64,000 bases of DNA. Origin: Coleofasciculus sp. FACHB-T130. Its GTDB lineage: Bacteria > Cyanobacteriota > Cyanobacteriia > Cyanobacteriales > FACHB-T130. A program made the position numbers and the translations under genes. Of the stretch, positions 1,095 through 38,257 are shown one piece after another (the first letter of the stretch is position 1; each line of letters opens with the position of its first letter). The stretch is taken from positions 124,001-188,000 of the forward strand of contig NZ_JACJOG010000050.1 of NCBI RefSeq assembly GCF_014695375.1, read 5' to 3'. The notes beneath the pieces are model-generated. The model was given only the letters and a program-made list of their open reading frames with translations. It ran no database searches and was not told the DNA's origin.

Positions 1095-1097
1095 TTT

Positions 1098-2870: not shown

Positions 2871-2908
2871 ATATAATTCCTTATTTTTTGATTTAATTCT
2901 AATTTTAT

Positions 2909-5644
2909 TTATGCTGCTAACTTCTCGGTAAACTCAATCAACTCATCCACCTCTTCTTCACTAAACCACCGCTCAACAGCATCCTCCCCAAATCTATCCA
3001 ATGGTTCCTCATATAAATCCGCCACCTCCAACCGCCGATTCTTCAAAAACACATTCTGCACCGCCCTTAAAAACCGAATCTGATTTGCATTAAACTGCCG
3101 TTGGGCAATAAACTCCTCAAAATTCCGCCTCACCACCTCCTGATAATCCGGCAGCGCCTCAATCTCCATCAACTCCCGCAAAAACGCCAGCAAACTATTC
3201 ACCTTCAAATTAAACGCCTTGCGAATATTCGATTCCGATAACTGCACGTTTCCCCCACCCAACTCTTGCCGCAGCGTCCTCTCCAACGCCACCAGTTGCA
3301 AGTCTGTCACCGCTTCCCCATTGCGAATTGCTGCGATCGTCGGGTGAGTCTCCACAATCTCCAACACCTTCCCCTCAACCCGCTGGCGGTATTCCTCAAT
3401 ATAAACCTGCTCTCCCCCATCGCCCAAGGTAATATAACCACTAACGGCAATGCGATCTGCCAGGTCAATTTCAATAAACGAACTCGGTCGTTCCCGTCGA
3501 TTCTTCATCTGATCTGCCAAGGAAGCGATCGCACGATTCAACTCCTCTGGTGTCGCAGTCCTCAGCTTAGATGAAAGGCAAAGATTTATCGAGTCCCGAC
3601 GCTCCAAGTCTTCATAAACAAAATCCGGCAACCGGCTCACATCCTCTACGATAGATTCCAGCGTTCCCGGTTTTGCTTCACCCGTAACGATTTCAACCTT
3701 CAACCGTTCCACCTTATTCGTAAACGTCGCCTCAGCCACATCCACCCCCGCCACAAACCGCAGCAAAGGAGCAACCTGAGTGCGGAGAAAATTAATCTTC
3801 CTCTGAGTCAAATACCGCCAAAACCCATCCGTCCAAGCCTCCTCAACCTGAGAATAAACCTGCTGGACGCTAAACGCATCGCGAGGAATTTGCCCAATGT
3901 GCTGCCGTAAATCTGCGATCGCCTGTTTGCAGTCTGCCGACTCTTGATTATCTAAGTAAAACTCCAGCAGCTTCAACCGGGTGTTAAAAATTTTCACCGT
4001 AACGGGCAGATTTTGAGTAACCGTCTCCTCACTGGGGTCTTTGTCAAAGTCATTCTCCCAGAAGTCGATAATCAGAAACTCATCCTTGCGCCCATTGGGA
4101 AGCCGATGCAAATACCGACAAGCTTCATGGCTGCGCGTTCCCCGCCCTATCATCTGCTGCATTTTGATTAGAGAGTGAACGGGCTTCATAAACACCAGAT
4201 TCACCACCTCCGGCACATCCACGCCCGTATCCAGCAAATCCACAGAAATGGCAATGCGAGGCATCTCTTCCTTCTTAAAGCGGTCAATCAAATCATCCGT
4301 GCGTTCCATCTCGGAGGTAATCACCTGCACCATATCGGGATACTGGGGATACATCTCCTCAAACACACTTGCCAACCGCAGGGCGTGCTTTTGACTCACC
4401 GCAAATACAATCGTCTTGCCGGGATACTGCCCCGATTCATCTTTGTGGCAAACCTCCATAATTTCTTCCCACTGTTTCCGCAACGTATCTTTGTTGCTGA
4501 CAGTGCGCTCTAATTCCGTCCCCTCGTAATCAATCTCATCCGGGTCTAACCCTTGCTCAATCAAGGTATTGCGGTCTTCTTCCGAAAGGTTTGCCCCCCG
4601 AATCCCCTCCCGTTGAAAATGACTCTGAGCTTGATAAAGGCTGTAATCAACCAGATAGCCCTCATTAACCGCATCTCGATAGGGATAATTAAACGTCGGA
4701 AGACCATCAGAACAGCGAAAAACCTGGAACGTATTGCGCTCAATAAAATCGGCTGGCGTTGCCGTCAGTCCAATAATCCGCGCATCAAAATATTCCACCA
4801 CTTCCCGGAACTGGTTGTAAATCGAACGGTGACTCTCATCAAAAATCACCACATCAAAGAAGCCAGGGCTAAACTTTTTGTGGCATTTAACCAGGGTTTG
4901 CAGTGTCCCGACATACAACCGCTTGCTGTAATCAACGTTGTAGGTACGGATGCGATCGCGTGGCTCGTTCGGCAAATAAACCTTAAAATTATCATCTAGC
5001 GCTTGCCTCACCAACGTATCTCGATCTGCGACAAACAGCACCGTCCGCGCTTGATTCGCTCTCAGGAACAACTCAATCAACGCCATGATGGTGCGCGTTT
5101 TCCCCGTCCCCGTCGCCATGACCAGCAGCGCCCGTCGATGTCCCTCATCAAACCGTTCGCTAACCCGCCCAATTGCCTCTTGTTGATAGGTACGGTTTGC
5201 GATCGCTAAATTAACGCTCAACTGTTGCAGGGGAATTTTGTTCTGGCGGATGTAGAGCAAATTCTGTAAGTCTCTTAGGGAGAAAAACCCCGCTACCTGC
5301 CGCTTGTTTTCGTTCCCCACATCCCAGAAGAACGTCCTATCCCCATTACTCATAAAAGCAAAGGGACGAAAACTCTGGTGCTTCTCAATCTCTGTTACAT
5401 AATGCCTAACCTGCTGTTCTGCCACCCGTGGATCGCGGCTTTGTCGTTTCGCCTCTACAACAGCAATTACTTCCCCATTCGGCAAATAGAGGCAGTAGTC
5501 CGTGACTCCATTCCAAGGTGCTGCATCATACCCATCTACTGGGATTTCAATCCTCACCAGGTTTGGATCTTTCAGGCTCCATCCTACTGTTGCTAACGCC
5601 CCGTCAATTAAATCTTTTCGAGTATTCGCTTCGTTGCGAGACAT
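2909..5644 (-). CDS. hsdR: Type I restriction enzyme endonuclease/translocase subunit HsdR
   Basis: 911-residue motor and nuclease subunit; it translocates DNA using ATP and cuts it away from the recognition site. The N-terminal nuclease domain has the PD-(D/E)XK-type EAK at residues 64-66 (VVEAKRQSRD). Walker A is ATGTGKT (177-183), the helicase motif II is DESH (269-272), then GLTATP and a late IGRGTR helicase motif VI. The C-terminal region resembles the EcoEI-type R-subunit C-terminal domain. First gene of the operon hsdR, HEPN gene, hsdM. An inverted repeat upstream (5845-5867) may be its operator. Family assignment is firm. Confidence 0.93.
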   Translation of the reverse strand: MSRNEANTRKDLIDGALATVGWSLKDPNLVRIEIPVDGYDAAPWNGVTDYCLYLPNGEVIAVVEAKRQSRDPRVAEQQVRHYVTEIEKHQSFRPFAFMSNGDRTFFWDVGNENKRQVAGFFSLRDLQNLLYIRQNKIPLQQLSVNLAIANRTYQQEAIGRVSERFDEGHRRALLVMATGTGKTRTIMALIELFLRANQARTVLFVADRDTLVRQALDDNFKVYLPNEPRDRIRTYNVDYSKRLYVGTLQTLVKCHKKFSPGFFDVVIFDESHRSIYNQFREVVEYFDARIIGLTATPADFIERNTFQVFRCSDGLPTFNYPYRDAVNEGYLVDYSLYQAQSHFQREGIRGANLSEEDRNTLIEQGLDPDEIDYEGTELERTVSNKDTLRKQWEEIMEVCHKDESGQYPGKTIVFAVSQKHALRLASVFEEMYPQYPDMVQVITSEMERTDDLIDRFKKEEMPRIAISVDLLDTGVDVPEVVNLVFMKPVHSLIKMQQMIGRGTRSHEACRYLHRLPNGRKDEFLIIDFWENDFDKDPSEETVTQNLPVTVKIFNTRLKLLEFYLDNQESADCKQAIADLRQHIGQIPRDAFSVQQVYSQVEEAWTDGFWRYLTQRKINFLRTQVAPLLRFVAGVDVAEATFTNKVERLKVEIVTGEAKPGTLESIVEDVSRLPDFVYEDLERRDSINLCLSSKLRTATPEELNRAIASLADQMKNRRERPSSFIEIDLADRIAVSGYITLGDGGEQVYIEEYRQRVEGKVLEIVETHPTIAAIRNGEAVTDLQLVALERTLRQELGGGNVQLSESNIRKAFNLKVNSLLAFLRELMEIEALPDYQEVVRRNFEEFIAQRQFNANQIRFLRAVQNVFLKNRRLEVADLYEEPLDRFGEDAVERWFSEEEVDELIEFTEKLAA

Positions 5645-5844
5645 TCAAGCATCCTTTAGAAGTGAATCAGCAGCAAGGGTGAGCGATCGCGCCTGGAGCA
5701 GGCGCTACTCTCTTAGTGTTCCCACTGATTACGTCGCAAATCACTGCTAACCATTCTGGCTTCGGAATTGACCAGAAGCCAGGAATGTGAAATTGATTCT
5801 CTTTCAAAGTCTTTGTGGAAAGGTAAAAGGCAATTGTTCCTCTC

Positions 5845-5867
5845 ATGTGTCCAACAATTGGACACAT
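5845..5867. promoter_or_regulatory. Perfect inverted repeat upstream of the hsdR operon, candidate operator
   Basis: ATGTGTCCAA, a 3-base spacer and TTGGACACAT form a perfect 10-bp inverted repeat. It lies about 200 bases upstream of the hsdR start and 40 bases beyond the end of the NACHT gene. No T-run follows on either strand, so it looks more like a dimeric repressor site than an intrinsic terminator. The binding protein is unknown; the HTH protein encoded at 8856-10232 is one candidate. Confidence 0.5.
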
Positions 5868-5906
5868 CAATCGTATTACTTCTTGAGTGTAAATTTTGTA
5901 CAAGGT

Positions 5907-7118
5907 CTAACTGAGATTGAGTTGCTTGCCCAGCCAGTTACGGAAGCTGGAATGATAGAGACAGTAACAGGTTGCTCCACCGATTTGCTGTTGCTGTAAG
6001 AATTCAATCCAATTTTCTAGCACTTCCTCTACTTCGTATTCATCCTCATCAATGATTCGGGCGATCGCTTCTGCGGATATCGGTTGTGCTGCCTGTACTA
6101 AGATGTTCAGTACCGCTACATCCACTGATGGTAATGGCTCGATGCTTTCACCCGCTAAGTTAACTTGTCGCTTGGCGATCGCGTTTTGCCAGTGGCTTTG
6201 ATAGTATTCTGTCAAACCGGGATGAAATGGATCGAATTGGAAGGGTTGAGAGTAAAATCCCGTGGCGATCGCTTTGATAATTTGGCTCAGGTACGCGAAA
6301 TTATTTTCGCTCTCTGGCGCGAGGCGATCGCAGAATTCTTGTTCGCTTATATTGTGGGTGATTAGCCAAGATTTTAGATCCCTTAAAAAGGAGGGAGAAT
6401 TGCGCTCGCTTGATTCCTCCATTGCAATTCCCTCCTTCATTCTTGTTCCCTCCTTACCAAGGGGGGTTAAGCATTGTCGGATATACGCCTGCACGTCTTC
6501 CCGGTTGCGATCGGGGTATTTTTCGAGGGTGAGAATCTGAGACGGTGTTTCGATTAATAAACCAGATTTTTCCCGGATAAAGGGTCTCCGAGCTAGGAGA
6601 AAATAGATTTTCTCAGGGAGATATCGGGGAAGGTAGAACAGATTTGAACCAGGGGGTTGACTGCTAGGGTCGATCGCATCTAAACCATCAATGACTGTAA
6701 TTAGCTTTTGATTGGGTGGGAGAGAATCGCTAATTTTCTGGAGTAACAGAGATAGAAACCAACTCCCCTCCGTGGCATTATCTGGTAGCGCGGTATCTTC
6801 ACCAAGCGTTGCCATTAATTGCTGGCAGATGGAAGCGAGGAATCGATCGGCGCGATTTTTACCAGCAATTTGGGCCTTGTAATAAGCAACGCCGGGATTT
6901 TCAGTGACGTACTTGGCGAGGATGGCACTTTTGCCGCTACCGGGTGCGCCGACAATCGTGAAGTAACCGCGATCGCACTTGTGTAAAAATTCCTCAATGG
7001 CGGTAAAGACAAAATGACGACCAACGAAATTAGCGCTTTTTTCGCTAATTGTTTGCTGGAATTCGGCAGCGTAGGAGGGGGTATAGAGCGGGGTTGGCGA
7101 TCGAGGTGGGTTGTTCAT
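5907..7118 (-). CDS. NACHT-like P-loop NTPase of a WD40-linked signalling/conflict module
   Basis: 403 residues. A segment NFVGRHFVF precedes Walker A GAPGSGKS (57-64); Walker B is near residue 140 (LITVIDGLDAID). Further STAND/NACHT-like features are RRPF and the Y-Q-xHW segment. It is homologous in layout to the upstream HTH-NACHT protein (both have VGR/CGRxFVF, GYFTxVG, SENNFAYL/MYL, a DEYEVEEVL/DEYEVQSVL helix and a terminal CYxxYHxSF), so the two are probably duplicates. The start overlaps the stop of the WD40 gene by 4 bases. The protein has no sensor repeats of its own; the separate WD40 protein may serve as sensor (inference). It probably acts as an NTP-driven switch in stress or phage response. 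Confidence 0.75.
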   Translation of the reverse strand: MNNPPRSPTPLYTPSYAAEFQQTISEKSANFVGRHFVFTAIEEFLHKCDRGYFTIVGAPGSGKSAILAKYVTENPGVAYYKAQIAGKNRADRFLASICQQLMATLGEDTALPDNATEGSWFLSLLLQKISDSLPPNQKLITVIDGLDAIDPSSQPPGSNLFYLPRYLPEKIYFLLARRPFIREKSGLLIETPSQILTLEKYPDRNREDVQAYIRQCLTPLGKEGTRMKEGIAMEESSERNSPSFLRDLKSWLITHNISEQEFCDRLAPESENNFAYLSQIIKAIATGFYSQPFQFDPFHPGLTEYYQSHWQNAIAKRQVNLAGESIEPLPSVDVAVLNILVQAAQPISAEAIARIIDEDEYEVEEVLENWIEFLQQQQIGGATCYCLYHSSFRNWLGKQLNLS

Positions 7119-8854
7119 GGTGATGCTATCCCTTCCAACCGGAGGAAATGCACTCGTCCTGAATGTTCACCCGCCACAATTGTCAATCCATCTGGTGCAA
7201 CACCACAACAGAGTAATGGATTCTCCCCAGTGAAAGTAGCAATTACCTCTCCGGTTTCCAGATTCCAGACTTTGAGAGTATTGTCCCTTGAACCAGAAAT
7301 CGCCTGCTTGCCATCTGGGGTGACGGCTACCGCAGTTACCGAGTGGCGATGACCGCTCAGGGTGAAGCGTAACTCTCCGGTTTCCAAATTCCAAACTTTG
7401 AGAGTATGGCCCCCTGAACCAGAAATCGCCTGCTTGCCATCTGGGGTGACGGCTACCGCATTTACTGAGTGGCGATGACCGCTCAGAGTGAAGCATAACT
7501 CTCCGGTTTCCAAATTCCAGACTTTGAGAGTATTGTCCCTTGAACCAGAAATCGCCTGCTTGCCATCTGGGGTGACGGTCACCGCAGTTACCGAGTAGTG
7601 ATGACCGCTCAGGGTGAAGCGTAACTCTCCAGTTTCCAGATTCCAGACTTTGAGAGTATTGTCCCCCGAACCAGAAATCGCCTGCTTGCCATCTGAGGTG
7701 ACGGCTACCGCAGTTACCGGGTGCCAATGACCGGTCAGGGTGAAGCGTAACTCTCCAGTTTCCAGATTCCAAACTTTAAGAGTAGTGTCCCTTGAACCAG
7801 AAATCGCCTGCTTGCCATCTGGGGTGACGGCTACCGCATTTACCGAGTAGTGATGACCGCTCAGGGTGAAGCGTAACTCTCCAGTTTCCAGATTCCAAAC
7901 TTTGAGAGTAGTGTCCCTTGAACCAGAAATCGCCTGCTTGCCATCTGAGGTGACGGCTACCGCAGTTACCGGGTGCCAATGACCGGTCAGGGTGAAGCGG
8001 AACTCTCCGGTTTCCAGATTCCAGACTTTAAGAGTAGTGTCCCTTGAACCAGAAATCGCCTGCTTGCCATCTGGGGTGACGGTCACCGCATTTACCGAGT
8101 GGCGATGACCGGTCAGGGTGAAGCGTAACTCTCCAGTTTCCAGATTCCAGACTTTAAGAGTAGTGTCCCTTGAACCAGAAATCGCCTGCTTGCCATCTGG
8201 GGTGACGGCTACCGCATTTATCCAGTCGCGATGACCGCTCAGGGTGCGTAGTAACACCTCGTTAGGATTCGTTAAGCTACCTATCAAGGGACGCAACCAA
8301 GGTTTAGATTTGCACTGCTTCGCCTGTTCTACTAACTTCTGAATGAGAGGAGACTGCCTAATATCCTCAATGAGAGGAAGCTGGCTAATATTTTGTAGTT
8401 TAGGTTTCTGAGAGTATTTCGATAAAAAATGTCCAATCAAGGGAATGTATTGCCAAAAATATTTATATTCGTGTCGATCTTCCTGAAATGCCACAGCAGG
8501 GGATGGTAACAGCCGTCCCAACAATTGCCCCGCTAGTTGCGACTTATCCTCAGCCAAAATATGTCCCGATAGCCGCAGCACCCCTTGAATCCATTTCAGC
8601 GCCTTAGTCTTCTCCGGATCGTACTCTGGGTTAGTTGATGCTTCTGGAGTAGAAATCAAATAATAATCCTCAATCAGCGTCTGCACCCCAAACTCAGGAT
8701 GATTAATCTTTTCTGCCAAGAAATCAAAATCAGCTAGGATTTGGTAATACTTATCTAACTTCCCTGACTTCACCAGATTTTGCGGTAAGCCACCCAGATA
8801 AGCACGTTGAAAGGCGGGACTTTTTGCCGCTAATTTGTCAGCAAATTCTCCCAT
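7115..8854 (-). CDS. WD40-repeat beta-propeller protein with nearly identical blades
   Basis: 579 residues. The N-terminal 200 residues are non-repetitive and helical. From residue 207 there are eight 42-residue WD40 blades, each of the form GHxxxVxAVxVTPDGKQAISG then TLKVWNLETGE, followed by one degenerate blade at the C-terminus (about 575). The blades differ mainly at the residues right after GH (RDW, RHS, WHP, HYS) and at the SRD/SGD/SGG turn. The start lies 2 bases after the upstream HTH-NACHT stop and the stop overlaps the next NACHT gene, so all three are one operon. WD40 propellers next to NACHT ATPases act as ligand-binding sensors in NLR-like proteins; here the sensor is encoded separately. 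Near-identity of blades suggests recent amplification or gene conversion. Confidence 0.85.
   Translation of the reverse strand: MGEFADKLAAKSPAFQRAYLGGLPQNLVKSGKLDKYYQILADFDFLAEKINHPEFGVQTLIEDYYLISTPEASTNPEYDPEKTKALKWIQGVLRLSGHILAEDKSQLAGQLLGRLLPSPAVAFQEDRHEYKYFWQYIPLIGHFLSKYSQKPKLQNISQLPLIEDIRQSPLIQKLVEQAKQCKSKPWLRPLIGSLTNPNEVLLRTLSGHRDWINAVAVTPDGKQAISGSRDTTLKVWNLETGELRFTLTGHRHSVNAVTVTPDGKQAISGSRDTTLKVWNLETGEFRFTLTGHWHPVTAVAVTSDGKQAISGSRDTTLKVWNLETGELRFTLSGHHYSVNAVAVTPDGKQAISGSRDTTLKVWNLETGELRFTLTGHWHPVTAVAVTSDGKQAISGSGDNTLKVWNLETGELRFTLSGHHYSVTAVTVTPDGKQAISGSRDNTLKVWNLETGELCFTLSGHRHSVNAVAVTPDGKQAISGSGGHTLKVWNLETGELRFTLSGHRHSVTAVAVTPDGKQAISGSRDNTLKVWNLETGEVIATFTGENPLLCCGVAPDGLTIVAGEHSGRVHFLRLEGIASP
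7229..8236 (-). repeat. Eight tandem 126-bp repeats encoding WD40 blades
   Basis: Eight in-frame units of 126 bp inside the WD40 gene, very similar even at third codon positions (for example the stretch encoding DGKQAISG is repeated with almost no silent change). Some pairs of units look like a duplicated two-blade block: the WHP and HYS blades alternate twice. This points to recent unequal crossing-over or conversion. Assembly of this stretch should be treated with care because the units are longer than some short reads. Confidence 0.9.
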
Positions 8855-8855
8855 C

Positions 8856-10232
8856 TCACGCCATCTCCTTTTCTAAGTAATCAACAATGCGTTGATTAAC
8901 CTGGTGAAATAGCTTCCGCCTTGACTTCAGTTCCCGTTTGCTTTTTAGAAAGTCAAGAAAACTGGCATGATAGATGGTATAGCAGAGTTCTCCCTCAATT
9001 CCCTGCATCCTCAAATACTCAACCCACTCATCCAAGACTGATTGCACCTCATATTCATCTTGATCGGCAATTGCAGCAATCATCTCACAAGGAATCGGCG
9101 TACCAATCTCCACCAAAATAAACAAAGCGATCGCCTTAATTTCATTCGGTGCCGCATCCATATTCATCCGCACCCAATGAGTTTGATAATAATCCTGAAG
9201 ACCGTCCGGTAATTGCTTTAAACTCAGATCGTCATAGAAACCGCGCATAATTCCTGGTAAGACATAGCGCAGATACATGAAATTGTTTTCGCTTTTTGCC
9301 GCTACCTGTTCGACAAACTCTTCCGGATAAATGTTACGGTCTTGAATCCACTTTTTCAGCCCATCTTTATAGTCTGGATCGCAATTGAGAGACAAGCGAA
9401 TATACTCTTTAATATCATTATGGCTGCAATCAACATATTCCCTCGCCCTTAAATCCAACTCCTGCACCGGAATACCAGGCGATAGAGTTAATCTTTTTTT
9501 CTCTTGGTTATAAGGTCGTCTAGTCAGCAGGAAATAAACCCGCTCTGGCAGCTCCTTCGGTAAATATAAAAGATTCTCTGCGCCCCATTCTTGCTCCACT
9601 TCATCCAGCGCATCAACCACAATTACAAGGCGTTCCCCAGAGGGAAGTTTTGGCACGACTTTGGAGACTAAAGTTGGCAGATCCGCATCTCTTGCATCCT
9701 GCAACTGGTAACGATTAATCAGTTGTTGGCGAATACTTTTGAGAAACAGTTCCGGTCGATTGCGGCGCTCTGCGAGAATGTTGAAATAGCAGGGAGAATG
9801 GTAGTCATAAACGTACTTGGCAGCGATCGCACTTTTCCCCATCCCCGCATCCCCCACCACCGTAAAGTAACCTTTAGGATTTTGTTGAAGGAAGTTTTTA
9901 AAGGCCTCAAAAACGAATTTCCGCCCGCAAAATGTCTTAATCTTTTCTGCGATTAGCGGCTCAAACTCTGATGGTAGCTGCTGCTGACGATACCACTCTT
10001 TCGGATCGACAATATCCGTTGGTTCAATCTCCAAAACCTTCACAATATTACTCACCGCCAACCTTTCCACCCCATTTGGACATTCTTTTGTACCAAGCAA
10101 GCGCTTCACCGTATCAAGCGAAACCTTGGCTTCTTTCGCTAGTTCCTCTTGAGTCAGCTTTGCTTCTTTACACGCCTGTCTAAGTGTTAATTTGCCTTCT
10201 GGACTAGATTGAACTTTATCAGATGGAAGCAT
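8856..10232 (-). CDS. HTH-NACHT regulator/ATPase of the WD40-linked module
   Basis: 458 residues. Residues 17-45 form an XRE-like helix-turn-helix (RQACKEAKLTQEELAKEAKV...TVKRLL), followed by a linker and FCGRKFVFEAF. Walker A is GDAGMGKS (127-134) and Walker B is RLVIVVDALDEVE. The remainder is the helical NACHT/winged region, ending in CYTIYHASFLDFLKSKRELKS. This is the first gene of the three-gene operon. The DNA-binding domain suggests it controls its own operon, possibly through the nested inverted repeat at 10498-10580. Cyanobacterial HTH-NACHT proteins of this form are common and often carry their own WD40 repeats; here the repeats are in the next gene. Exact role unknown. Confidence 0.8.
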   Translation of the reverse strand: MLPSDKVQSSPEGKLTLRQACKEAKLTQEELAKEAKVSLDTVKRLLGTKECPNGVERLAVSNIVKVLEIEPTDIVDPKEWYRQQQLPSEFEPLIAEKIKTFCGRKFVFEAFKNFLQQNPKGYFTVVGDAGMGKSAIAAKYVYDYHSPCYFNILAERRNRPELFLKSIRQQLINRYQLQDARDADLPTLVSKVVPKLPSGERLVIVVDALDEVEQEWGAENLLYLPKELPERVYFLLTRRPYNQEKKRLTLSPGIPVQELDLRAREYVDCSHNDIKEYIRLSLNCDPDYKDGLKKWIQDRNIYPEEFVEQVAAKSENNFMYLRYVLPGIMRGFYDDLSLKQLPDGLQDYYQTHWVRMNMDAAPNEIKAIALFILVEIGTPIPCEMIAAIADQDEYEVQSVLDEWVEYLRMQGIEGELCYTIYHASFLDFLKSKRELKSRRKLFHQVNQRIVDYLEKEMA

Positions 10233-10497
10233 AGGAGATTTTTAGTTGCGATCGCGGATATTCATTAGATTAGGTTTTTGCACTCTTATTGCCTGTTGGC
10301 TACACCCGCGAGAGAATCGATTCCCTGGCTTATAGAGCAAATCCTTTCCCATAAGAATCAACACTTATTGGAAAAGGGCTTTAGTCAGTTTAATCGGCTT
10401 GCTTAATTAGCCTAAAAATTAATTCAAGGACAGACAGTGCGGCTTATCAGAAAGAGTGCAATATGTCAGGTATAACTGATTTTTAATTTTACTGTCT

Positions 10498-10580
10498 AGG
10501 GCAGATAGGTTTTCACGCCTTGCCCTATTTGCCCCAAAATTTAGGGCAAATAATCAATACAAACTAAATCTATCTGCCCT
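10498..10580. promoter_or_regulatory. Nested double inverted repeat between divergent conflict-system genes
   Basis: The outer arms are AGGGCAGATAG (10498-10508) and CTATCTGCCCT (10570-10580). The inner arms are TATTTGCCC (10526-10534) and GGGCAAATA (10544-10552). All four arms share the core GGGCA followed by GATA or AATA, so this may be four half-sites of one binding protein. It lies between the HTH-NACHT gene (minus) and the small membrane gene (plus, 74 bases downstream). It has no downstream T-run, so an operator is likelier than a terminator. Confidence 0.5.
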
Positions 10581-10653
10581 GGAAGTCACTTTTTATTCCC
10601 AGTAGGATATCTGTATCGAGTTCCAACAATCAAATCTTCGAGGGGATTAACAA

Positions 10654-10965
10654 ATGAATTTCAACTTATTCAGAAAATTTCTACTCAATTATCAGCCAAG
10701 TTTTAAAGACGATTATAGCGATATCAAAGAAGAGATTATACGAGAATTGTTGCGAGAAGTTCGTCAAAGTTATAACCTTGCTCTTGCCGTAACTGCTGCA
10801 TCTGCCCTAATCACTTTATTAGGTGTTGGATTGCTTTACTTAGACAAAGTACCAGAAGCCTCCATTACCACGGGCGCAGGAGTTCTCGCAAGTCTTCGCA
10901 GCGTTCAATTTGCAAAAGATGCAAAAGAGGAACTTCGTCAAATGCTCACTAAGCTCCCACAATAA
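10654..10965 (+). CDS. Cyanobacterial TRADD-N-associated two-transmembrane domain protein
   Basis: 103 residues, start supported by a GAGGGG ribosome-binding site 9 bases before the ATG. An amphipathic N-terminal helix (EEIIRELLREVRQSYNLALAV) runs into a first membrane helix (AVTAASALITLLGVGLLYL), a short turn (DKVPEAS), a second hydrophobic helix (ITTGAGVLASLRSVQFA) and a charged tail (KDAKEELRQML). This is the pattern of the cyanobacterial TRADD-N-associated TM domain described in NTP-dependent conflict systems. Its place opposite an HTH-NACHT/WD40 operon fits a membrane-acting effector or anchor; that pairing is inference. Confidence 0.75.
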   Translation: MNFNLFRKFLLNYQPSFKDDYSDIKEEIIRELLREVRQSYNLALAVTAASALITLLGVGLLYLDKVPEASITTGAGVLASLRSVQFAKDAKEELRQMLTKLPQ

Positions 10966-11222
10966 AACTTACTCTGCGGCTTAGGCAATAGCATAGCTGC
11001 ATCACAGGTGTGGTTGTAGTGCGTGGTGCAGGTGCATAGTTAAGAATTCCATCACGCTCTAGCCCTCCCCTGCCTTTGGAGAAACTTCGCTCTTGCTACC
11101 AAAAGCTTCCAACTGAAAGCGCTTATTCTAGCAGGGAGTCAAACCGTAAACAGCTTCCTGATTTGCAATTAGAGTGTAGTCAAACTGAACTACGTTAACA
11201 ACACGTCACTCGCGATCGCTTA

Positions 11223-11792
11223 TCAAAGTCGCTTCTGTCTTTTTGCCATCGTCGCAAACGGCAACAAACAATGCGGACATTCACCGTGTACCCACAACGC
11301 AGGAACCGGGAACGGTGTTTCACAGTTAGTGCATTTCGCTAACAAACGCAACTGATGGCGATCGCATCCCCATCGCTCCTTAAACTGCCACTCAAGCCGA
11401 TGATAGGGGTTCTCCCCATAACAAGCTGCACACAACAGAATGGGTCTTGGCTTCATCGTTACGCCTTTGGGCGGCAGCATTGCGGCGAGTCTGGTTGCAT
11501 CCACTCGAATTACCTTTCCCAATGCTTCCAATTCTTTATGGGAGGGAAACGGGTTGAAATATAGTTTTTCCCATCTTCCCAAAGTTCCACCAAGCTCGGT
11601 TAGTTTTCCCAATGAATAGGCGGAAGGAAGACTATTAGCCTTGAACCGCCGCAAGCGTCCTAAATAATGACTAATGCTCTCGCCTTCATAAGGCTCAACA
11701 TAGCCTAATCTTGGTAAGTTATCATCCCTTTCCTGCATTTGAGTCGTGTCAAATAAAGTTTCAGGACTGCTAGATAGCAACAGAGTAATCAC
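11223..11792 (-). CDS. tniQ: TniQ family target-selection protein of Tn7-like module 1
   Basis: 189 residues from a GTG overlapping the tnsC stop by 4 bases; an internal ATG 18 codons later (MQERDDNLPRLGYVEPYEGE) is an alternative start. It has the TniQ signature YEGESISHYLGRLRR, then RWEKLYFNPFP, then two zinc-binding clusters (CAACYGE; CTNCETPF...CPHCLLPF), with the GCDRHQLRLLAKC segment typical of TniQ. TniQ links the target-recognition complex to TnsC in Tn7-like transposons. It resembles the short TniQ of V-K CASTs (about 167 residues) but differs clearly from the copy at 34802-35314. Third gene of the tnsB-tnsC-tniQ operon. Confidence 0.9.
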   Translation of the reverse strand: MITLLLSSSPETLFDTTQMQERDDNLPRLGYVEPYEGESISHYLGRLRRFKANSLPSAYSLGKLTELGGTLGRWEKLYFNPFPSHKELEALGKVIRVDATRLAAMLPPKGVTMKPRPILLCAACYGENPYHRLEWQFKERWGCDRHQLRLLAKCTNCETPFPVPALWVHGECPHCLLPFATMAKRQKRL

Positions 11793-12649
11793 TCGCTGTC
11801 ATTTCTTGGTTGAAGGGGAACATATTTCATACCATAGCGATTGGCAATTTTCCCCAAAATTCCTTCATCAACCTTGAGAAAACCCTTTTTGAGCGAGTGT
11901 AAAACTGCCTTGGTCAAAATTTTGACTAACACTCCTATACGAGCTTCTGTACTGAGCGATAGGATTTCAAACATCGTTCCTTCCGTTAAACGAGATGCTT
12001 CCGGTAGGGCAAGGATATCAAACTCAATAGTTTGTAAGGTTTTTCTAAAGTCTTCGTAGTCGAGTCGTTCAAAGGCGAACAGCGTTGGAAAACAACTCAG
12101 TAAGTCGAAGCTATGCAATTTGCTGTCTAGTTCTTGTCCTCCAACTAAAATAATAGGAACCCTAGACTCATCAAAAAGTTGCTTGAGATCGAGCAGGGCT
12201 TCCCGTTGAAGATTTTCGGCATTGTCAACGATAACAAGTTCAATGCCAAATAGTTCAAGGCTACCTGCCAATCTAGGACGCAAATCTTCCCGCTTACCGT
12301 TTGCGGCTGCATGATTAATGTCTTTGAGGATTTGCGTAAATAATCGTTTGGAACTGGATTCTGACCACGCTTTGACATAAGAAACTCGTTTGCGATCTTC
12401 TTGTCGATAGTGGATTGATGCACGGCTTTTGCCAACATCTCTCGGCCCAATAACACGCCCACATTGTTTAAGGAACCGCAGTTCATCCAACCATCTCACG
12501 TAGTCTGAAGCACGATCGGTCGGGATAAAAGCCGTTCTGAATAGCTCCTCTATTTGAGCAACCTTGGCAAGTTGAGCGGTCAAATCTAACTGAGGAGCCA
12601 GAACTTCAACAGGTGTCTGAGTTACAAGTTGCGATCGCGCCATAGTCAC
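11789..12649 (-). CDS. tnsC: TnsC AAA+ ATPase of Tn7-like module 1
   Basis: 286 residues. Walker A is GPRDVGKS (68-75); Walker B is ELVIVDNAENL, with D142 and E145; a sensor-like IILVGGQELD follows. TnsC is the AAA+ regulator that forms filaments on DNA and connects target selection by TniQ to the TnsB transposase. The TnsC at 35311-36147 has the more typical IDEAD box. This one has a VDNAE sequence, so the acidic pair spacing is kept but the motif diverges. The start overlaps tnsB by 4 bases and the end overlaps tniQ by 4 bases. Confidence 0.9.
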   Translation of the reverse strand: MTMARSQLVTQTPVEVLAPQLDLTAQLAKVAQIEELFRTAFIPTDRASDYVRWLDELRFLKQCGRVIGPRDVGKSRASIHYRQEDRKRVSYVKAWSESSSKRLFTQILKDINHAAANGKREDLRPRLAGSLELFGIELVIVDNAENLQREALLDLKQLFDESRVPIILVGGQELDSKLHSFDLLSCFPTLFAFERLDYEDFRKTLQTIEFDILALPEASRLTEGTMFEILSLSTEARIGVLVKILTKAVLHSLKKGFLKVDEGILGKIANRYGMKYVPLQPRNDSE

Positions 12650-14529
12650 CAGATCCTTTTCGATTTGCTTTGACGATTAGAAATTACCAGCCGATGCCTA
12701 TCCTGCTGTTGAGCATCAGATGTAGAAGGCAAGGTTTCTTCAGGTTGTGGTTCTGGTTGTTGAGGCTTTATTTGTTCCCTGGAAATCCGCTCAGGTAAAA
12801 TTTCAAGCGGCTCATCTTTCTTTGAAGAGGTTGAAGCTCTACGCTGACGTAACTTGACGACATTTGAGTCTTTCTTTGAGGATCGTCGTAACTGTTTCTG
12901 TTCAGCTCGCTGTTTGTCCTTCTTATCCTGTTTACGCTCCTCAACAAGTTTCTTTCGTTTGCCTAGCGCTAGCAGAGCATCATAATTTGAATGTTCCTTA
13001 CGAGCTTTACTTCGCTCTTTATTGAGCCTTTTTAACTCATCCAAACTCAAATCCTGAGTATCCAGGTTTATGGCATGAGCATATCCCAGAAAATCTCCCA
13101 GCTTCTCATCCGTTTCGTTGCTGTAGACACACAACGTCAGAATATTGTCAGGATCGTATCGCAATGTGACGTATTTGCCGCTAAGTTGCCTTAGTGATTC
13201 TCCTCGATAGGTCAGATTCTCAAATTGGACAGAGCCATGAGCTTGAACAACTCGCTGAGCCTCTTGCATTAGACAAATATCTAGTTCTCGCTCGTCTGGT
13301 GGTTCAGGCAATTTTCCACCCATTCCCTTAAACCATCTCTCAAACCTTGTATCGCGAGGGTCTTTAGGATATGGCTGGTAGTTATAGTCATCGCAGAAGA
13401 ACTGAGCTAGGATTTTATCCAAATCGTGAATGGTCAAGCAGGCTTCCTTTTCTGCCTGCTCTGGGCGCTCCTGAACATTTGAACCTGTATAACCGGGAAG
13501 TCCCTTAAGAACCTGAGTATTGATGGTTTTGAAAACTCGTTCTACAATTCCGCCTTGAGGTGGGCGATCGCGCAGTTCGCACTGGAAACCTAGCTTCTTT
13601 CCAATAGCTTTTAGGTGCTTTGAGCGAAAATCCTTCCCTCCGTCAGTGAAAAAATATTGGAGTGAAGAGCCACATATTTGCCAAGGTTTTTCCAGCTCGT
13701 ATGCCGAGGGATAGTGCTTGGGTAAGATGGCATGTCTTAAAGCCAGAGCTACTTCATCAGAACCCGGTTGTTTTCTCCATAAGTGATAACCAATAACACA
13801 GCTTGAGAACGTATCTATGACAGTGGTTATCCAGGGTCGATCAGGTAATAACACGCCATCACTACCGACAATCCGAATATCCAACTTTGTATGATCGCAT
13901 TGGACAATTTGGTTGCTAAACTCAGCCTTTAAGAGGTGCCCAGTTCTTGTCTCAACTGCCAACCAAGAGCCGGAACCCGGATTGCGAACGCGCTTTTTCC
14001 GGTTTTGATGCTCGATTAATGGTTGCAAAACTCGATAGATAGTGGCTGGATGGGGATAGTCACACTCTTCAAGCCCAAGCTCGACGATTGCGTGTCGCTT
14101 CACTTCACGAACGACTTCTGCTGGAGATAGTGGGTGTTTATCTTTAAGACTCTTTTCATAAGTTGACTTCACAAATTCTTCCCAATAGTCACTGATGCGA
14201 TGCTTCCCCTTATCTGAGCGCTGCACTCCTGTTGTCTCTGGTAGCTCATCTCTGATGTATTGCTTGAGGAGGCGCTCTACCTGCCGAGTAGAAATATTTA
14301 GGGTATTTGCGATCGCCTGCTTCCTTTGAGACTTAAGCGTGCGATTCGGGGACTGGGCAAGCCATTGAATGAGATTAAATTTAAGTTTGTGTTTATCAGC
14401 AGTTTCTCGAAGAATTTGTGAGGGATCGACTTCAAAATTACTCTCACCGAGGTAAAGAGTGTCTAAATCTTGTGCCAATTCTTCTATCAGTTCAGATGGG
14501 TCGTCTAGCATGAGGGGAAGATCATCCAT
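12646..14529 (-). CDS. tnsB: TnsB DDE transposase of Tn7-like module 1
   Basis: 627 residues. N-terminal HTH domains (NTLNISTRQVERLLKQY) are followed by an RNase H-fold core with the DDE triad D212 (VQCDHTKLD), D296 (FFTDGGKDF) and E330 (GGIVERVF), then the GLPGYTGSNVQERPEQAEKE segment shared with V-K TnsB proteins and a basic, low-complexity C-terminal tail. It lacks the acidic/aromatic C-terminal hook that V-K TnsB uses to bind TnsC (LKEDYGW in the copy at 36150-37811); its tail ends SKSKRIW. TnsB binds the transposon ends and joins them to target DNA. Its own end lies just upstream (14581-14785) with sites unlike those of the CAST. Confidence 0.93.
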   Translation of the reverse strand: MDDLPLMLDDPSELIEELAQDLDTLYLGESNFEVDPSQILRETADKHKLKFNLIQWLAQSPNRTLKSQRKQAIANTLNISTRQVERLLKQYIRDELPETTGVQRSDKGKHRISDYWEEFVKSTYEKSLKDKHPLSPAEVVREVKRHAIVELGLEECDYPHPATIYRVLQPLIEHQNRKKRVRNPGSGSWLAVETRTGHLLKAEFSNQIVQCDHTKLDIRIVGSDGVLLPDRPWITTVIDTFSSCVIGYHLWRKQPGSDEVALALRHAILPKHYPSAYELEKPWQICGSSLQYFFTDGGKDFRSKHLKAIGKKLGFQCELRDRPPQGGIVERVFKTINTQVLKGLPGYTGSNVQERPEQAEKEACLTIHDLDKILAQFFCDDYNYQPYPKDPRDTRFERWFKGMGGKLPEPPDERELDICLMQEAQRVVQAHGSVQFENLTYRGESLRQLSGKYVTLRYDPDNILTLCVYSNETDEKLGDFLGYAHAINLDTQDLSLDELKRLNKERSKARKEHSNYDALLALGKRKKLVEERKQDKKDKQRAEQKQLRRSSKKDSNVVKLRQRRASTSSKKDEPLEILPERISREQIKPQQPEPQPEETLPSTSDAQQQDRHRLVISNRQSKSKRIW

Positions 14530-14580
14530 TCTGAGGAATAGTAAAAATGTACCATCCCTTCTGAAGAATAGCTAGACAAT

Positions 14581-14785
14581 GCGACACTCAATTTGCGATG
14601 TCGCTAAATTTAAAAAACGACAATTAATTTGCGAGACAAGATTTCCGACATGGAGTGTGCGAAATCGACAAAGTTGCTGCTTTTGGAATTAAAAAGCCTA
14701 AAAAGTTTTCGGGGAAAGGCTTTCACTGGTTTGTAGCAGCTATGCCGTTATTCAAAAATTGCGACATTTAATTTGCGAACGTACA
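14581..14785 (-). mobile_element. Left end of Tn7-like module 1 (TnsB site array)
   Basis: Three copies of a site of the form CGACA-N3-AATTTGCGA lie at 14581-14598, 14618-14634 and 14761-14779, with a degenerate fourth near 14647-14662. Read on the minus strand, the outer boundary starts TGTACGTTCGCAAATT at 14785, fitting the TGT start of Tn7-family ends. The array sits directly upstream of the tnsB at 12646-14529, as left ends do. The sites differ from those of the neighbouring CAST (TTTGCGA instead of TTTGTCA). I could not find the matching right end, which may lie beyond the left edge. Confidence 0.65.
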
Positions 14786-14866
14786 ATTGACTAATTATTT
14801 GTCATCGTTGCCAAATTAGTGTCGTCTTGTCAAATTATTTGACGTTTTGACAAAATAATTGTTGTC
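14780..14866 (+). mobile_element. Right end of the type V-K CAST (TnsB site array)
   Basis: Four closely packed sites spaced about 20 bp apart start at 14787 (TTGACTAATTATTTGTCA), 14808 (TTGCCAAATTAGTGTCG), 14827 (TTGTCAAATTATTTGACG) and 14847 (TTGACAAAATAATTGTTGTC). The outermost one closely matches the outermost site of the left end at 38055-38071 read on the other strand (ATTGACTAATTA then TGTCATC). Right ends of V-K elements lie beyond the CRISPR array, as here. The terminus reads CGTACA rather than TGTACA and overlaps the terminus of module 1 by about six bases. Confidence 0.8.
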
Positions 14867-14919
14867 CAATGTTTGTGACATACAACATTCTGTACTTTGT
14901 TTGTACGATCGCAGCGCTC

Positions 14920-15509
14920 CTTTCAACCCACCTTAATAAATTCCTTTCTGTACATCTACTTTCAACCCACCCCTAGTTGGGATGGTCGTTGAAACGAAAA
15001 CGTTGTCGCTGCTGCCCACGAAGTACCCGCTCTTTCAACCCACCCCTAGTTGGGATGGTCGTTGAAACCGCTCATCTTCGCAAGCAGTACCCTGGCGAAT
15101 ACAGACTTTCAACCCACCCCTAGTTGGGATGGTCGTTGAAACTCACCAACACGTAAGCTAGATCGCTCCCGTCCGCAAGTGTCTTTCAACCCACCCCTAG
15201 TTGGGATGGTCGTTGAAACTTTGGCTTCAGGGGGTGCGCTCGGTTCTTTCTTAACTTTCAACCCACCCCTAGTTGGGATGGTCGTTGAAACCTCCAGTCA
15301 TTGAGGCAGCGCAAGCCCATAATTTCTTTCAACCCACCCCTAGTTGGGATGGTCGTTGAAACAAATACATTGACGGCTATTTTGATGGGGCAATAGAACT
15401 TTCAACCCACCCCTAGTTGGGATGGTCGTTGAAACTTCTGCCAGCAGACGAACCCACCAAGCCCCCATTGACCTTTCAACCCACCCCTAGTTGGGATGGT
15501 CGTTGAAAC
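14920..15509 (-). CRISPR. Type V-K CRISPR array, eight full 37-bp repeats plus a truncated terminal repeat
   Basis: Full repeats start at 14959, 15032, 15106, 15183, 15255, 15326, 15399 and 15473, each 37 bp and identical. In the transcribed (minus) direction each begins GTTTCAACGACC and ends GGGGTGGGTTGAAAG, the usual V-K repeat form. Spacers are 34-40 bp. The array is read away from cas12k and the tracrRNA, so the repeat at 15473-15509 is leader-proximal. At the distal end a 26-bp spacer (14933-14958) is followed by only the last 13 bases of a repeat (14920-14932). Spacers match nothing else I could see in the window. Confidence 0.97.
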
Positions 15510-16045: not shown

Positions 16046-17896
16046 TCAAGATTTACGACGATTGCGATAAGCAGAAATTGCTACTTCTTTAGCTTTTTCT
16101 TGGGGACTTGCTCGGATGGGTTGTTGTCCTTCCTCAACAACCATACCTAATTTGCTGGCTTGGGCTTTGATATCGTTTATTAATCTTCCATAGCTCCACT
16201 GATGAACTTGAATTCGATAGCGCTTGAGGTATTTTTTTCTGTTTTCAATAAGCTCCGGAAATTTCTGCTCTGCTTGCGCTTGAATCTTACTCTCAAAAGA
16301 CTCACGTATATCGCCTAGCTTTGGTAACACAATACTACCTGCATCAGAGGTTTGAGCAAACGTGACAATAGCTTTGGCTATTAAACGATCTATGTGTTCG
16401 CCTAATTGAGAATCTCCGAATTGATTGGAGCTTCCATCTCTTTGAGCTTTGTGGCGTTGATGAGATTCCTTTTGTTTACGCTTGTGTCGTTTGTTTAACA
16501 GCTCGTAATTATCTCCGAGTAATTGTTTGAAACTACGATAAGTAATTACTTTGTCTTTTTTTCCATCAAAAACTGCTATTGTTGTAGGTTTATGTCGTTC
16601 TAATGCCACACCTATAAGAATATGAGGTTGACCTTGATAGGGGGGTTGGCTGGGACGGGGAAAGGGGTTGTTAAGTCGAGCTAGGGTTGATTGTTCGTGG
16701 CGGATAAAAGCTTGCTGGTTGTCATTGAGTTCGCCTTTTTCCTCCATTTTGGTAAGGGTTTTGGCAATACCTTCCGCTTTTTCTTTGCAAACTTGCTCTG
16801 TGCCTTCAGCCGTCCAGAAACGGGTGTCTACGGTGCAGTAGAGGATGAGTTGATGAATTTTCCAAGGATCGTCTTTATTTGTATTTGTGCCTCCTTGCCA
16901 AGCAATCCTTCCTGAGCGCAGAGTAAAAAGACTACTAGAGTATTCATTCTTACTGCCTTTTCTGATTTTTTGATCTTCGTAAAAGCGTTCAAACCATTTA
17001 AGCTGGCGTTGGTCACAGTAGATTTGAAACGTATGTTTGCCTAAGCCATTAAATTTAACACTAAGGCGACCTTTATCGTTTTTTCTCCAAGTCAAATCTT
17101 CGCTAGTTTCATAACCGACTGGAAAGGGTATTAGCTTTGGTTCAGTTAGCAGTTTATTTTGCCAGGATTTAGCTTCTGACTCATCTGTGGGAGCAGTGGT
17201 AGATGCGATCGCTAATGTCTCTAGCCAGCTTTCCCCTGTTAAATCTCGACCTTTGGGTAGGCGACTTTCTAATTGCCGTTTTATTCGTTCAATCTGAATT
17301 TCAGTTTTGCGACGGCGTTTAGCAAATTCTTCTAAGTTTTCTTCAGATTTTTCAGGAACTTCATTACTATTTTTGAATAAGTAGCAGACGACGCAGCGAG
17401 TAAGGAGGTCGTCTGCGTCGTTGTATACTTTCCAAAGTTTGGTATAAATACTACCCTCTTCAGAGGATAGGGAGTTGAGGAGTTCGGCAGCATTGGTGAG
17501 AATTACCTCAACAGAAGTGTTACTTTCTGCGGTTAATTCTTCATCGCTTTTGAGCATTCCTAACCAACTAATTTTCCTACTCAGTTTTTGTGCTAGGCGT
17601 TGCTGAAGTTTAAACCAGGATTTATAGATGTATTCAACGACGGCAATTGCACTTGTATAGAACCGTGCAGGTTGATTAGTGAATCGAGGGTCAGCTTTGA
17701 GGGGTTGGCACAATTGTTTGACTATTCCAGCCGGAAGACTGCCCTTTTTTCGCCAAGTTTCAAACTTAGGATGTTGAGCCATTTGCGCCAGTAATTCGTT
17801 AATTAAGGGCGTGTTCAGGTCTGCCATCAATTTCCAGAGATGATGGCGAGTTGATTCGCTTGCAACCAAACGGCACTGAACGGTTATATGGCTCAT
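16046..17896 (-). CDS. cas12k: Cas12k, nuclease-inactive type V-K effector
   Basis: 616 residues, slightly shorter than the well-known V-K effectors (about 637). It starts MSHITVQCRLVASES and shares the family blocks LWKLMADLNTPLINELL, EFAKRRRKTEIQIERI, SRLPKGRDLT and GQHIDRL-like GEHIDRLIAKAI. The RuvC-I region reads GVALE (429-433) where active Cas12 enzymes have a catalytic aspartate. The RuvC-II region reads VLPKLG (523-528), without a catalytic glutamate. Cas12k therefore binds guide and target but does not cut, and recruits TniQ/TnsC. It is encoded divergently from cvkR with a 68-bp promoter region, followed on its own strand by the tracrRNA and array. Confidence 0.97.
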   Translation of the reverse strand: MSHITVQCRLVASESTRHHLWKLMADLNTPLINELLAQMAQHPKFETWRKKGSLPAGIVKQLCQPLKADPRFTNQPARFYTSAIAVVEYIYKSWFKLQQRLAQKLSRKISWLGMLKSDEELTAESNTSVEVILTNAAELLNSLSSEEGSIYTKLWKVYNDADDLLTRCVVCYLFKNSNEVPEKSEENLEEFAKRRRKTEIQIERIKRQLESRLPKGRDLTGESWLETLAIASTTAPTDESEAKSWQNKLLTEPKLIPFPVGYETSEDLTWRKNDKGRLSVKFNGLGKHTFQIYCDQRQLKWFERFYEDQKIRKGSKNEYSSSLFTLRSGRIAWQGGTNTNKDDPWKIHQLILYCTVDTRFWTAEGTEQVCKEKAEGIAKTLTKMEEKGELNDNQQAFIRHEQSTLARLNNPFPRPSQPPYQGQPHILIGVALERHKPTTIAVFDGKKDKVITYRSFKQLLGDNYELLNKRHKRKQKESHQRHKAQRDGSSNQFGDSQLGEHIDRLIAKAIVTFAQTSDAGSIVLPKLGDIRESFESKIQAQAEQKFPELIENRKKYLKRYRIQVHQWSYGRLINDIKAQASKLGMVVEEGQQPIRASPQEKAKEVAISAYRNRRKS

Positions 17897-17964: not shown

Positions 17965-18393
17965 ATGTCAGAAAGATTTTTTAGCAGTAAGGAAGCGGCT
18001 GAGATTACAGGCTGTAGTTTGCGCCAGTTGCAGTATTGGAGGGAAAGGGGAGTTGTTGTACCTCCGATTAGTGCCACTGGAACAGGACGGAGTATTTACT
18101 ACTCTCGTTCTGAGTTGGCTGAGTTGGCAGTGATGGAATACTGGTTATCGGTAGGATTAAGTTTTGAGGTGGCAGCTAGGGCATTGCAGGCTTTGAAACA
18201 TAAAGCACCGGATTTTTCCGCTCCAGGGGTGCCGAAGCGGTTTATGTTGGTCTGGAATAGAAAGGAGAAGGATTTTCGGTTGGAGGAGTTTGAAAGGGAA
18301 GAGGCGATTTCATCTATAGATAATGGTCAACCTGTAATTCCGGTATGGTTGGACGAGATTCATCAGCAATTGGCGGTTAGGTTGAAGAGTTGA
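17965..18393 (+). CDS. cvkR: CvkR-type MerR-family repressor of the V-K CAST
   Basis: 142 residues. The N-terminal MerR winged helix-turn-helix is clear (FFSSKEAAEITGCSLRQLQYWRERGVVVPP, then GRSIYYSRSELAEL). No C-terminal metal-binding cysteines are seen; the tail is short and carries an FSAPGVPKRFMLVWN segment. Position and divergent orientation next to cas12k match the CvkR regulators shown to repress cas12k and tracrRNA in cyanobacterial V-K CASTs. A purine-rich AGAGG directly before the ATG is too close for a normal ribosome-binding site, so translation may be nearly leaderless. Confidence 0.88.
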   Translation: MSERFFSSKEAAEITGCSLRQLQYWRERGVVVPPISATGTGRSIYYSRSELAELAVMEYWLSVGLSFEVAARALQALKHKAPDFSAPGVPKRFMLVWNRKEKDFRLEEFEREEAISSIDNGQPVIPVWLDEIHQQLAVRLKS

Positions 18394-36147: not shown

Positions 36148-36149
36148 GA

Positions 36150-37811: not shown

Positions 37812-37860
37812 CTTTCAACAATACTGTTTAATTGCAACATAGTACAATTATACTGATGGC

Positions 37861-38077
37861 GACAAACAATCTGTCAAAGATGATAAAAATCCTCATTTCC
37901 GAACTTGGACAACTAATTTGGCAATTTCCAGAGATTAGACACTTAATTTGTCAATAGACTCCAAATGAGGGTAAAGATAGTAAAATAGCCTGTAACCCTT
38001 GTATAGTGATGGTTACAGGCTTTGATTTAACTACGACAAATAATTTGTCAAGATGACATTTAATTAGTCAATCGACA
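37861..38077 (-). mobile_element. Left end of the type V-K CAST (TnsB site array)
   Basis: Five sites of the form GACA-N8/9-TGTCAA: 37861-37877, 37908-37924, 37938-37954, 38035-38050 and 38055-38071. On the minus strand the terminus reads TGTCGATTGAC (38077 inward), with the TGT start of Tn7-family ends. Spacing is wider than in the right end, as usual. The gap between the second and third site from the terminus holds a hairpin (37987-38021). The base after the element starts the flank GCAAGGTAAT. Confidence 0.85.
37987..38021. terminator. Perfect 11-bp hairpin inside the CAST left end
   Basis: AGCCTGTAACC (37987-37997) and GGTTACAGGCT (38011-38021), 13 bases apart, followed on the plus strand by TTGATTT. 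It could end transcription entering or leaving the element, or be a structural site in the transpososome. Confidence 0.5.
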
Positions 38078-38257
38078 GCAAGGTAATTAATCTAAAGTCT
38101 ACTAAAACTCTACTAAGAATGAGTAGCTATATGGAGATTTTGGTCTTCTTAGCTGTAGGAAGCTCTACAGTTCGATGGTTTAATTGCAGATTGATAAATT
38201 GCACATCGCCTGTCACCTTAGTATCTGCGATCGCTTACAGGCAAATCCTTATCCGTC

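Follow-up and report, generated by a model that had tools for sequence, protein, structure and literature searches.

A type V-K CAST of a divergent lineage, very probably nested in the right-end tip of another at a cyanobacterial tRNA-Ala gene

To which element belongs a tnsB-tnsC-tniQ module that has no Cas gene beside it and is joined end to end with a CRISPR-associated transposon (CAST)? The question is raised by the 64,000-nt stretch analysed here (the window, C50:124001-188000, C50 being contig NZ_JACJOG010000050.1 of the 6.2-Mb draft genome of Coleofasciculus sp. FACHB-T130, in 60 contigs). The initial annotation had placed such a set, module 1, next to the type V-K CAST that we call element B, and three intact minus-strand open reading frames (ORFs) at 11223-14529 bear this out. 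It had also described module 1 as diverged from the V-K set of the window, and its proteins are indeed 45% (TnsB), 30% (TnsC) and 57% (TniQ) identical to those of B. We propose that module 1 forms the transposition half of another complete V-K CAST, element A, that B homed first, and that A then nested 10 bp inside the tip of B's right end. We give this reading a probability of about 0.92. Ends are named as for ShCAST (Tn7747 of Scytonema hofmannii), with the left end at tnsB and the right end at the CRISPR array; PMC9938897 uses the reverse naming.

A search of the genome with the window's Cas12k found a second intact Cas12k (642 amino acids) at C50:108.8-110.7 kb, on the same strand and 13 kb beyond the window. 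This protein is 45% identical to the Cas12k of B, scores 826.9 bits against NCBIfam V_Cas12k (NF038191; the cut-off for calling Cas12k was 150 bits) and matches ShCas12k in the PDB with E=3e-168. A 30-bp inverted copy of the left tip of module 1 lies at C50:107486. Between the two tips are tnsB, tnsC and tniQ, in that order and with no tnsA among the annotated ORFs beside tnsB, cargo of ~24 kb, most of it of defence type, cas12k, a five-repeat CRISPR array, and a guide that follows a truncated repeat. The tips have the form TGT...ACA (TGTACG...CGTACA) and are flanked on both sides by the 5-bp target-site duplication (TSD) ATTGA. In Pfam, the module 1 proteins match Mu-transpos_C, AAA_22/TniB and TniQ, the last slightly below the cut-off. 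Since Cas12k, array and guide sit between the same two tips, module 1 is half of a full V-K CAST, which is a known kind of element in an unusual variant.

The part of A inside the window holds no cas gene, as would be expected of an independent Tn7-like transposon with another targeting route or of a module that borrows the Cas12k of its neighbour. The initial annotation had offered both, together with a CAST that had lost its Cas part. All three options presuppose the absence of Cas, and this proves to be an artefact of the window's edge, as Cas12k, repeats and right end lie upstream on the same contig. With its own Cas12k, array and guide between its tips, a Cas-less or borrowing module is refuted and can be regarded as virtually excluded. 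Among the examined relatives of its class (the A class, described below) that have enough contig, each module belongs to an element with its own Cas12k, on the same strand, and none is an isolated Cas-less copy. Recent duplication is also excluded, given the identities above for TnsB, TnsC and Cas12k and the position of the two TnsBs in separate clades. A and B are different V-K lineages with a common attachment site, tRNA-Ala(CGC).

The left end of module 1 had been said to abut the right end of the CAST, and this is exact to the base: the tip of A (...GCGAACGTACA) ends at 14785, and 14786 opens ATTGACTAATT, within B's right end. Taken alone, this junction looks like plain adjacency and would suit an insertion of A beside B, between the tRNA and B, followed by decay of B's tip. 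However, the contig beside tRNA-Ala(CGC) reads GCAAG-TGTCGATTGA-[TGTACG...A...CGTACA]-ATTGACTAATTATTTGTC, and the 10 bp between GCAAG and the tip of A are exactly the outer 10 bp missing from B's right end, as judged from B's left end (TGTCGATTGACTAATT). GCAAG stands on both sides of the whole 54.6-kb composite and ATTGA on both sides of A. Equal geometry is found in two further genomes, G091 and G340 (our labels for genomes, contigs and loci begin with G, C and L). Insertion side by side is therefore very improbable. The right end of B now reads GTACA-ATTGAC instead of TGTCG-ATTGAC; this end is probably crippled, and B could then no longer excise unaided.

The guides name the adjoining tRNA gene. 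That of A, GGGTTGAAAG followed by GAGCGCTGCGATCGCAC, matches the tRNA-Ala gene at 17/17 nt with the protospacer adjacent motif (PAM) GGTA, and that of B is GGGTTGAAAG followed by GAGCGCTGCGATCG; the tips of B and A lie 66 and 76 nt from the first protospacer base. Guides and spacing fall within the range reported for V-K CASTs, whose anchor spacers are ~17 nt long, use a GTN PAM and lie 46-82 nt from the transposon end (PMC9938897). Chance is ruled out by the 5-bp TSDs on both elements and the 17/17-nt match of A. In three genomes of the same family (G396, G398 and G399), the left-flank genes, tRNA-Ala(CGC) and the right-flank genes are colinear without a CAST; in the same-genus G395 the tRNA is rearranged, so that it is uninformative as an empty site. 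An assembly artefact joining two CASTs from different places might be suspected in a draft of 60 contigs. Against it, both TSD pairs fit this arrangement only, both guides name the adjoining tRNA, and in relatives the chromosome on either side of that tRNA is colinear, which makes such an artefact barely credible.

Several points weigh against the nesting of A in B: (i) B's guide matches the tRNA-Ala gene over 14 nt and then mismatches; (ii) the 76-nt spacing of A exceeds that of other A-class elements (54-63 nt); (iii) in the CAST-free relatives the right flank lies ~1.5-2.5 kb beyond the tRNA, and this stretch is not homologous throughout to ours; (iv) the junctions rest on the sequence of one draft assembly. 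The anatomy of the two elements, both TSDs, both guides, the CAST-free flanks in relatives and the order of insertion are shown by the sequences; Cas12k-guided transposition probably produced each insertion.

In the sequence of events that we propose, B would have inserted beside tRNA-Ala(CGC) under its truncated-repeat anchor guide, with TSD GCAAG. Because the tRNA target survives each insertion, another CAST directed at it may land a few bases from the first tip. Cas12k of A with its anchor CRISPR RNA (crRNA) would bind the tRNA-Ala protospacer also used by B, TniQ and TnsC of A would assemble downstream of it, and TnsB of A would insert the element ~76 nt out, into B's tip, with TSD ATTGA. 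B's tip would thereby be left stranded beside the tRNA. Target immunity requires contact of the resident TnsB with the incoming TnsC (PMC11702153). A could plausibly ignore the immunity conferred by B, if TnsB, TnsC and the transposon ends have diverged too far between the lineages to interact; B's TnsB would not clear the TnsC of A, because the two TnsCs are so distant and the TnsB tails unlike.

Relatives of A's TnsB with 64-74% identity occur in ~10 other genomes, those named being Nostoc, Anabaena, Nostocales and Cyanocohniella. They form with it one clade on a long stem (100/100 support), which defines the A class. A tRNA gene (Lys, Thr in three cases, Ala, Val or Gly) adjoins the right end in all complete cases examined except G185. 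In 6/7 of the tRNA-adjoining relatives a guide matches over 11-18 nt, with GGTA as PAM; for G388 a simple search gave no guide match. The tips, TGTAC[A/G/T]TTCGC, differ from those of other classes. Viral contigs held no relatives of A's TnsB, and plasmids gave only matches below 60% identity, the best at ~40% in cyanobacteria and mostly to other TnsB/TniA-type transposases.

Nested junctions, counted only where the 5-bp TSD is clean, are present at other tRNA genes. In G091 (tRNA-Lys) the TSD is ACATT (tRNA strand), with the younger tip at 63 nt and the older at 55 nt; in G340 (tRNA-Pro) it is GTTGT (tRNA strand), with the younger tip at 60 nt. The outer 3 bp of the older tip in G340 fall within the TSD, so that this tip was restored by the duplication. 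These junctions indicate that a newcomer homing CAST lands in or at the tip of a resident when the attachment site is common. G382, G143 and G042 also carry stacked CASTs, without clean TSDs. G382 (tRNA-Ala) has an 8-bp repeat, TGTACATT, at the junction and was not counted; the stack in G143 (tRNA-Pro) appears decayed; and the left end in G042 lies in a cas12k remnant with no matching TSD, which likely follows a deletion. In G382 (C1:3974-4008 kb, L136-L137), three Cas12k genes or remnants are stacked at tRNA-Ala(CGC), and two of them have guides containing GAGCGCTGCGATCG, as in this window. We found no description in the literature of CASTs inserted in each other's tips or of a hook-less V-K TnsB class; this is weak evidence, since the 2021 tRNA-guide preprint and most subscription papers fell outside coverage.

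The initial annotation had also noted that module 1 TnsB lacks the C-terminal hook that binds TnsC. The canonical hook is in fact absent throughout the clade: the TnsB of A aligns to ShCAST TnsB only over residues 10-547 of 584, while the alignment of B's TnsB runs to residue 584 and takes in the hook. Every complete A-class TnsB has some form of ERHKLVISNRQKHLKKIW at its C-terminus; in B and in almost all the other complete TnsBs examined, the last residues are hook-like or acidic, as in EVFDYEQMREDYGW. The net charge of the tail is +2 to +5 in the A class and -4 to -10 in most others (0 in class 2, +2 in B). Mean conservation of the A-class tail (0.73) is no higher than that of the preceding linker (0.76), so that its conservation rests on particular residues, namely RH, a hydrophobic pair and the terminal IW.

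The TnsC of the A class is altered as well. Walker A reads GPR(D/N/E)xGKS, and Walker B has D-N-A where ShTnsC has D144-E145 (D-N in 11/11 distinct A-class TnsCs, compared with D-E in ~35 TnsCs from the remaining V-K elements). In ShTnsC, Q185 and R189 sense the nucleotide state (PMC9876797); their region is replaced in the aligned A-class proteins. The charge of TnsC is about +6..+13 in the Sh type and -4..+1 in the A class. Some V-K TnsCs are known to lack the catalytic glutamate or Walker A (review PMC11406308); a link between loss of the glutamate and a replaced TnsB tail was not found in the papers available. Because all members form one clade, the joint change of tail and Walker B counts as one coincidence and does not prove that the two are functionally linked. 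Separately, a further V-K-like class includes two TnsCs that have lost both Walker A and Walker B (LIIGKADYL and LIIGNADYL; L135, G143:C3, about 3095692-3096585, and L122, G042:C1, about 204953-205930), and its TnsBs end hook-like (DWNQFMRDNW / DWNEYKKNNW).

Do these changes mark elements in decay? Without its last 15 residues, ShCAST TnsB supports neither TnsC binding nor transposition (PMC9371665), and ShCAST requires the Walker B glutamate (PMC11406308), which would suggest loss of function and immobile elements. The low ratios of nonsynonymous to synonymous substitution (dN/dS) of 0.08-0.22 for TnsB and 0.06-0.24 for TnsC argue against decay, as do the constancy of D-N across the clade and the presence of insertions next to genes of five tRNA families, most of them with a guide that matches. 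A-class tnsB and tnsC are under purifying selection, and we consider decay improbable. For the final 60 codons of tnsB, dN/dS is higher in some pairs, reaching 0.6.

A mechanism that has not changed, in which A-class TnsC hydrolyses ATP through other residues and the tail is a diverged hook, has more in its favour. Most A-class Walker B motifs have a second acidic residue two positions on (DNAEN). When LVISNRQKHLKKIW and EVFDYEQMREDYGW are aligned by eye, end to end and ungapped, they have V, Q and the terminal W in common, from which no homology is claimed. The mostly reversed charge of the tail, the charge shift of TnsC and the replaced Q185/R189 region speak against it, and it seems unlikely, if not greatly so. 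Alternatively, and as a tentative possibility that we rate below even odds, the A-class tail may still dock TnsB on TnsC with altered chemistry, ATP-driven removal of the filament being reduced or absent. A fuller picture is likewise less probable than not: in A-class CASTs, RNA-guided transposition would rely on a TnsC that holds ATP without hydrolysing it and on a basic TnsB tail that docks in place of the acidic hook. Such elements would have neither ATPase-driven filament trimming nor target immunity, so that the ends of resident CASTs would become targets (B here, an A-type end in G091). Were A-class TnsC unable to hydrolyse ATP, A-class elements should be without immunity even to themselves. 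The A-class element inside an A-type right end in G091 fits absent self-immunity, as a single case.

Transposition modules have also been exchanged. The Cas12k partners of A-class TnsBs are not monophyletic: forcing monophyly costs 158 log-likelihood units (p-AU, from the approximately unbiased test, 3.4e-5), with the group defined from TnsB data before the test and with tnsB and cas12k of G390 and G391, on separate contigs, assumed to pair. In G042 (A-class) and G352 (another class, with an aberrant Walker A in TnsC), cargo, cas12k and array correspond in blocks that are 83-96% identical at the DNA level. The two elements are alike from just behind tniQ into the CRISPR array and differ in tnsB, tnsC and both ends; the pair G019 and G340 is built likewise, at 84-94% DNA identity. 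The shared interiors of the first pair lie at L122-L124 (G042:C1:218162-240338) and L138-L139 (G352:C1). Interiors kept while tnsBC and ends differ imply that tnsBC(Q) and the two ends are exchanged as a matched set, and that cargo and Cas12k can change their transposition machinery. CASTs stacked at one tRNA could plausibly provide the substrate for this exchange. In the fuller picture given above, stacking would immobilise residents and supply raw material for swapping tnsBCQ-plus-ends cassettes around a constant cas12k-cargo interior.

The ShCAST model makes the TnsB hook and ATP hydrolysis by TnsC essential for V-K transposition and target choice, and the A-class clade lacks both in known form. 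As a widespread clade under purifying selection, found beside five kinds of tRNA gene, it would reveal how far that model can be generalised. It could also yield an orthogonal V-K integrase with which insertions might be stacked at one site. Were AcCAST or AnCAST to belong to the A class, the tail and Walker B variant would already be known to be active.

Feature coordinates are collected in Table 1. The cargo of A (window 1-10232 and L005/L006) resembles a defence island, with a GmrSD-type protein, a KAP/STAND NTPase, two large WD40 proteins and an HTH-NACHT protein whose C-terminal part matches Avs1b; it also includes all of a type I restriction system (hsdS, hsdM, hsdR). Beside the cas12k of A (L005, 10707-10816) no MerR (CvkR) regulator was seen, unlike in B. 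B has a type I restriction system of its own (hsdM 18462-20024, hsdR 25296-28463).

Table 1. Features of elements A and B; positions refer to the window unless prefixed with C50 (contig numbering).
Feature	Position	Strand	Remarks
Element A	C50:107486-138785		31,300 bp; complete type V-K CAST; left half inside window
tniQ of A (189 aa)	11223..11792	-	intact ORF
tnsC of A (286 aa)	11789..12649	-	Walker A GPRDVGKS; Walker B VIVDNAENL (D-N for D-E)
tnsB of A (627 aa)	12646..14529	-	DDE residues D212, D296, E330 kept; basic tail RHRLVISNRQSKSKRIW replaces ShCAST hook
Left end of A	14530..14785	-	tip TGTACGTTCGC (minus strand) at 14785
ATTGA, TSD of A	14786..14790	.	other copy C50:107481-107485; also part of B's right end
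Cargo of A within window	1..11222	.	remainder of A at C50:107486-124000: more cargo, cas12k, CRISPR array, right end
hsdR, type I restriction (A cargo)	2909-5644		
WD40 protein (A cargo)	7115-8854		
HTH-NACHT protein (A cargo)	8856-10232		
TRADD-associated transmembrane (TM) protein (A cargo)	10654-10965		
Right end of B minus outer 10 bp	14786..14905	-	lost 10 bp (TGTCGATTGA, including one TSD copy) stranded at C50:107476-107485 beside tRNA
Truncated repeat of B (GGTGGGTTGAAAG) and anchor guide (GAGCGCTGCGATCG...) to tRNA-Ala(CGC)	14906..14932	-	
CRISPR array of B, eight repeats	14959..15509	-	Rfam CRISPR-DR15
cas12k of B (616 aa)	16046..17896	-	
MerR-type regulator of B	17965..18393	+	CvkR position and type
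tniQ of B	34802-35314	-	ShCAST-like set
tnsC of B	35311-36156	-	D-E Walker B
tnsB of B	36150-37811	-	hook present
Left end of B	37812..38077	-	tip TGTCGATTGACTAATT (minus strand) at 38077
GCAAG, TSD of B	38078..38082	.	other copy C50:107471-107475

V-K CASTs with tRNA anchor spacers are reportedly the subject of work by Hsieh and Peters in 2021 (cited in PMC8649781). Those of PMC9938897 resemble A and B in their truncated repeat, ~17-nt guide to the neighbouring tRNA gene, GTN PAM and 46-82 nt spacing; here, by contrast, one tRNA serves two lineages, with A sitting inside B's tip. ShCAST has the same layout as A, namely tnsB-tnsC-tniQ, cargo, cas12k, the trans-activating crRNA (tracr) region, array, TGT/ACA tips and 5-bp TSD. 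The TnsB of B matches ShTnsB to the last residue, whereas A is without the hook, has D-N in Walker B and carries other end motifs (TTCGCAAATTAAATGTCGC). The A-class TnsC shares the missing catalytic glutamate with V-K TnsCs of the review PMC11406308, but in the A class this loss goes with one particular TnsB clade, in which the hook is replaced, and with an end type of its own. Tn5053-type transposons (tniA-tniB-tniQ, no Cas) likewise have a tnsB-tnsC-tniQ-like set without tnsA; unlike them, element A has Cas12k, a CRISPR array and a guide.

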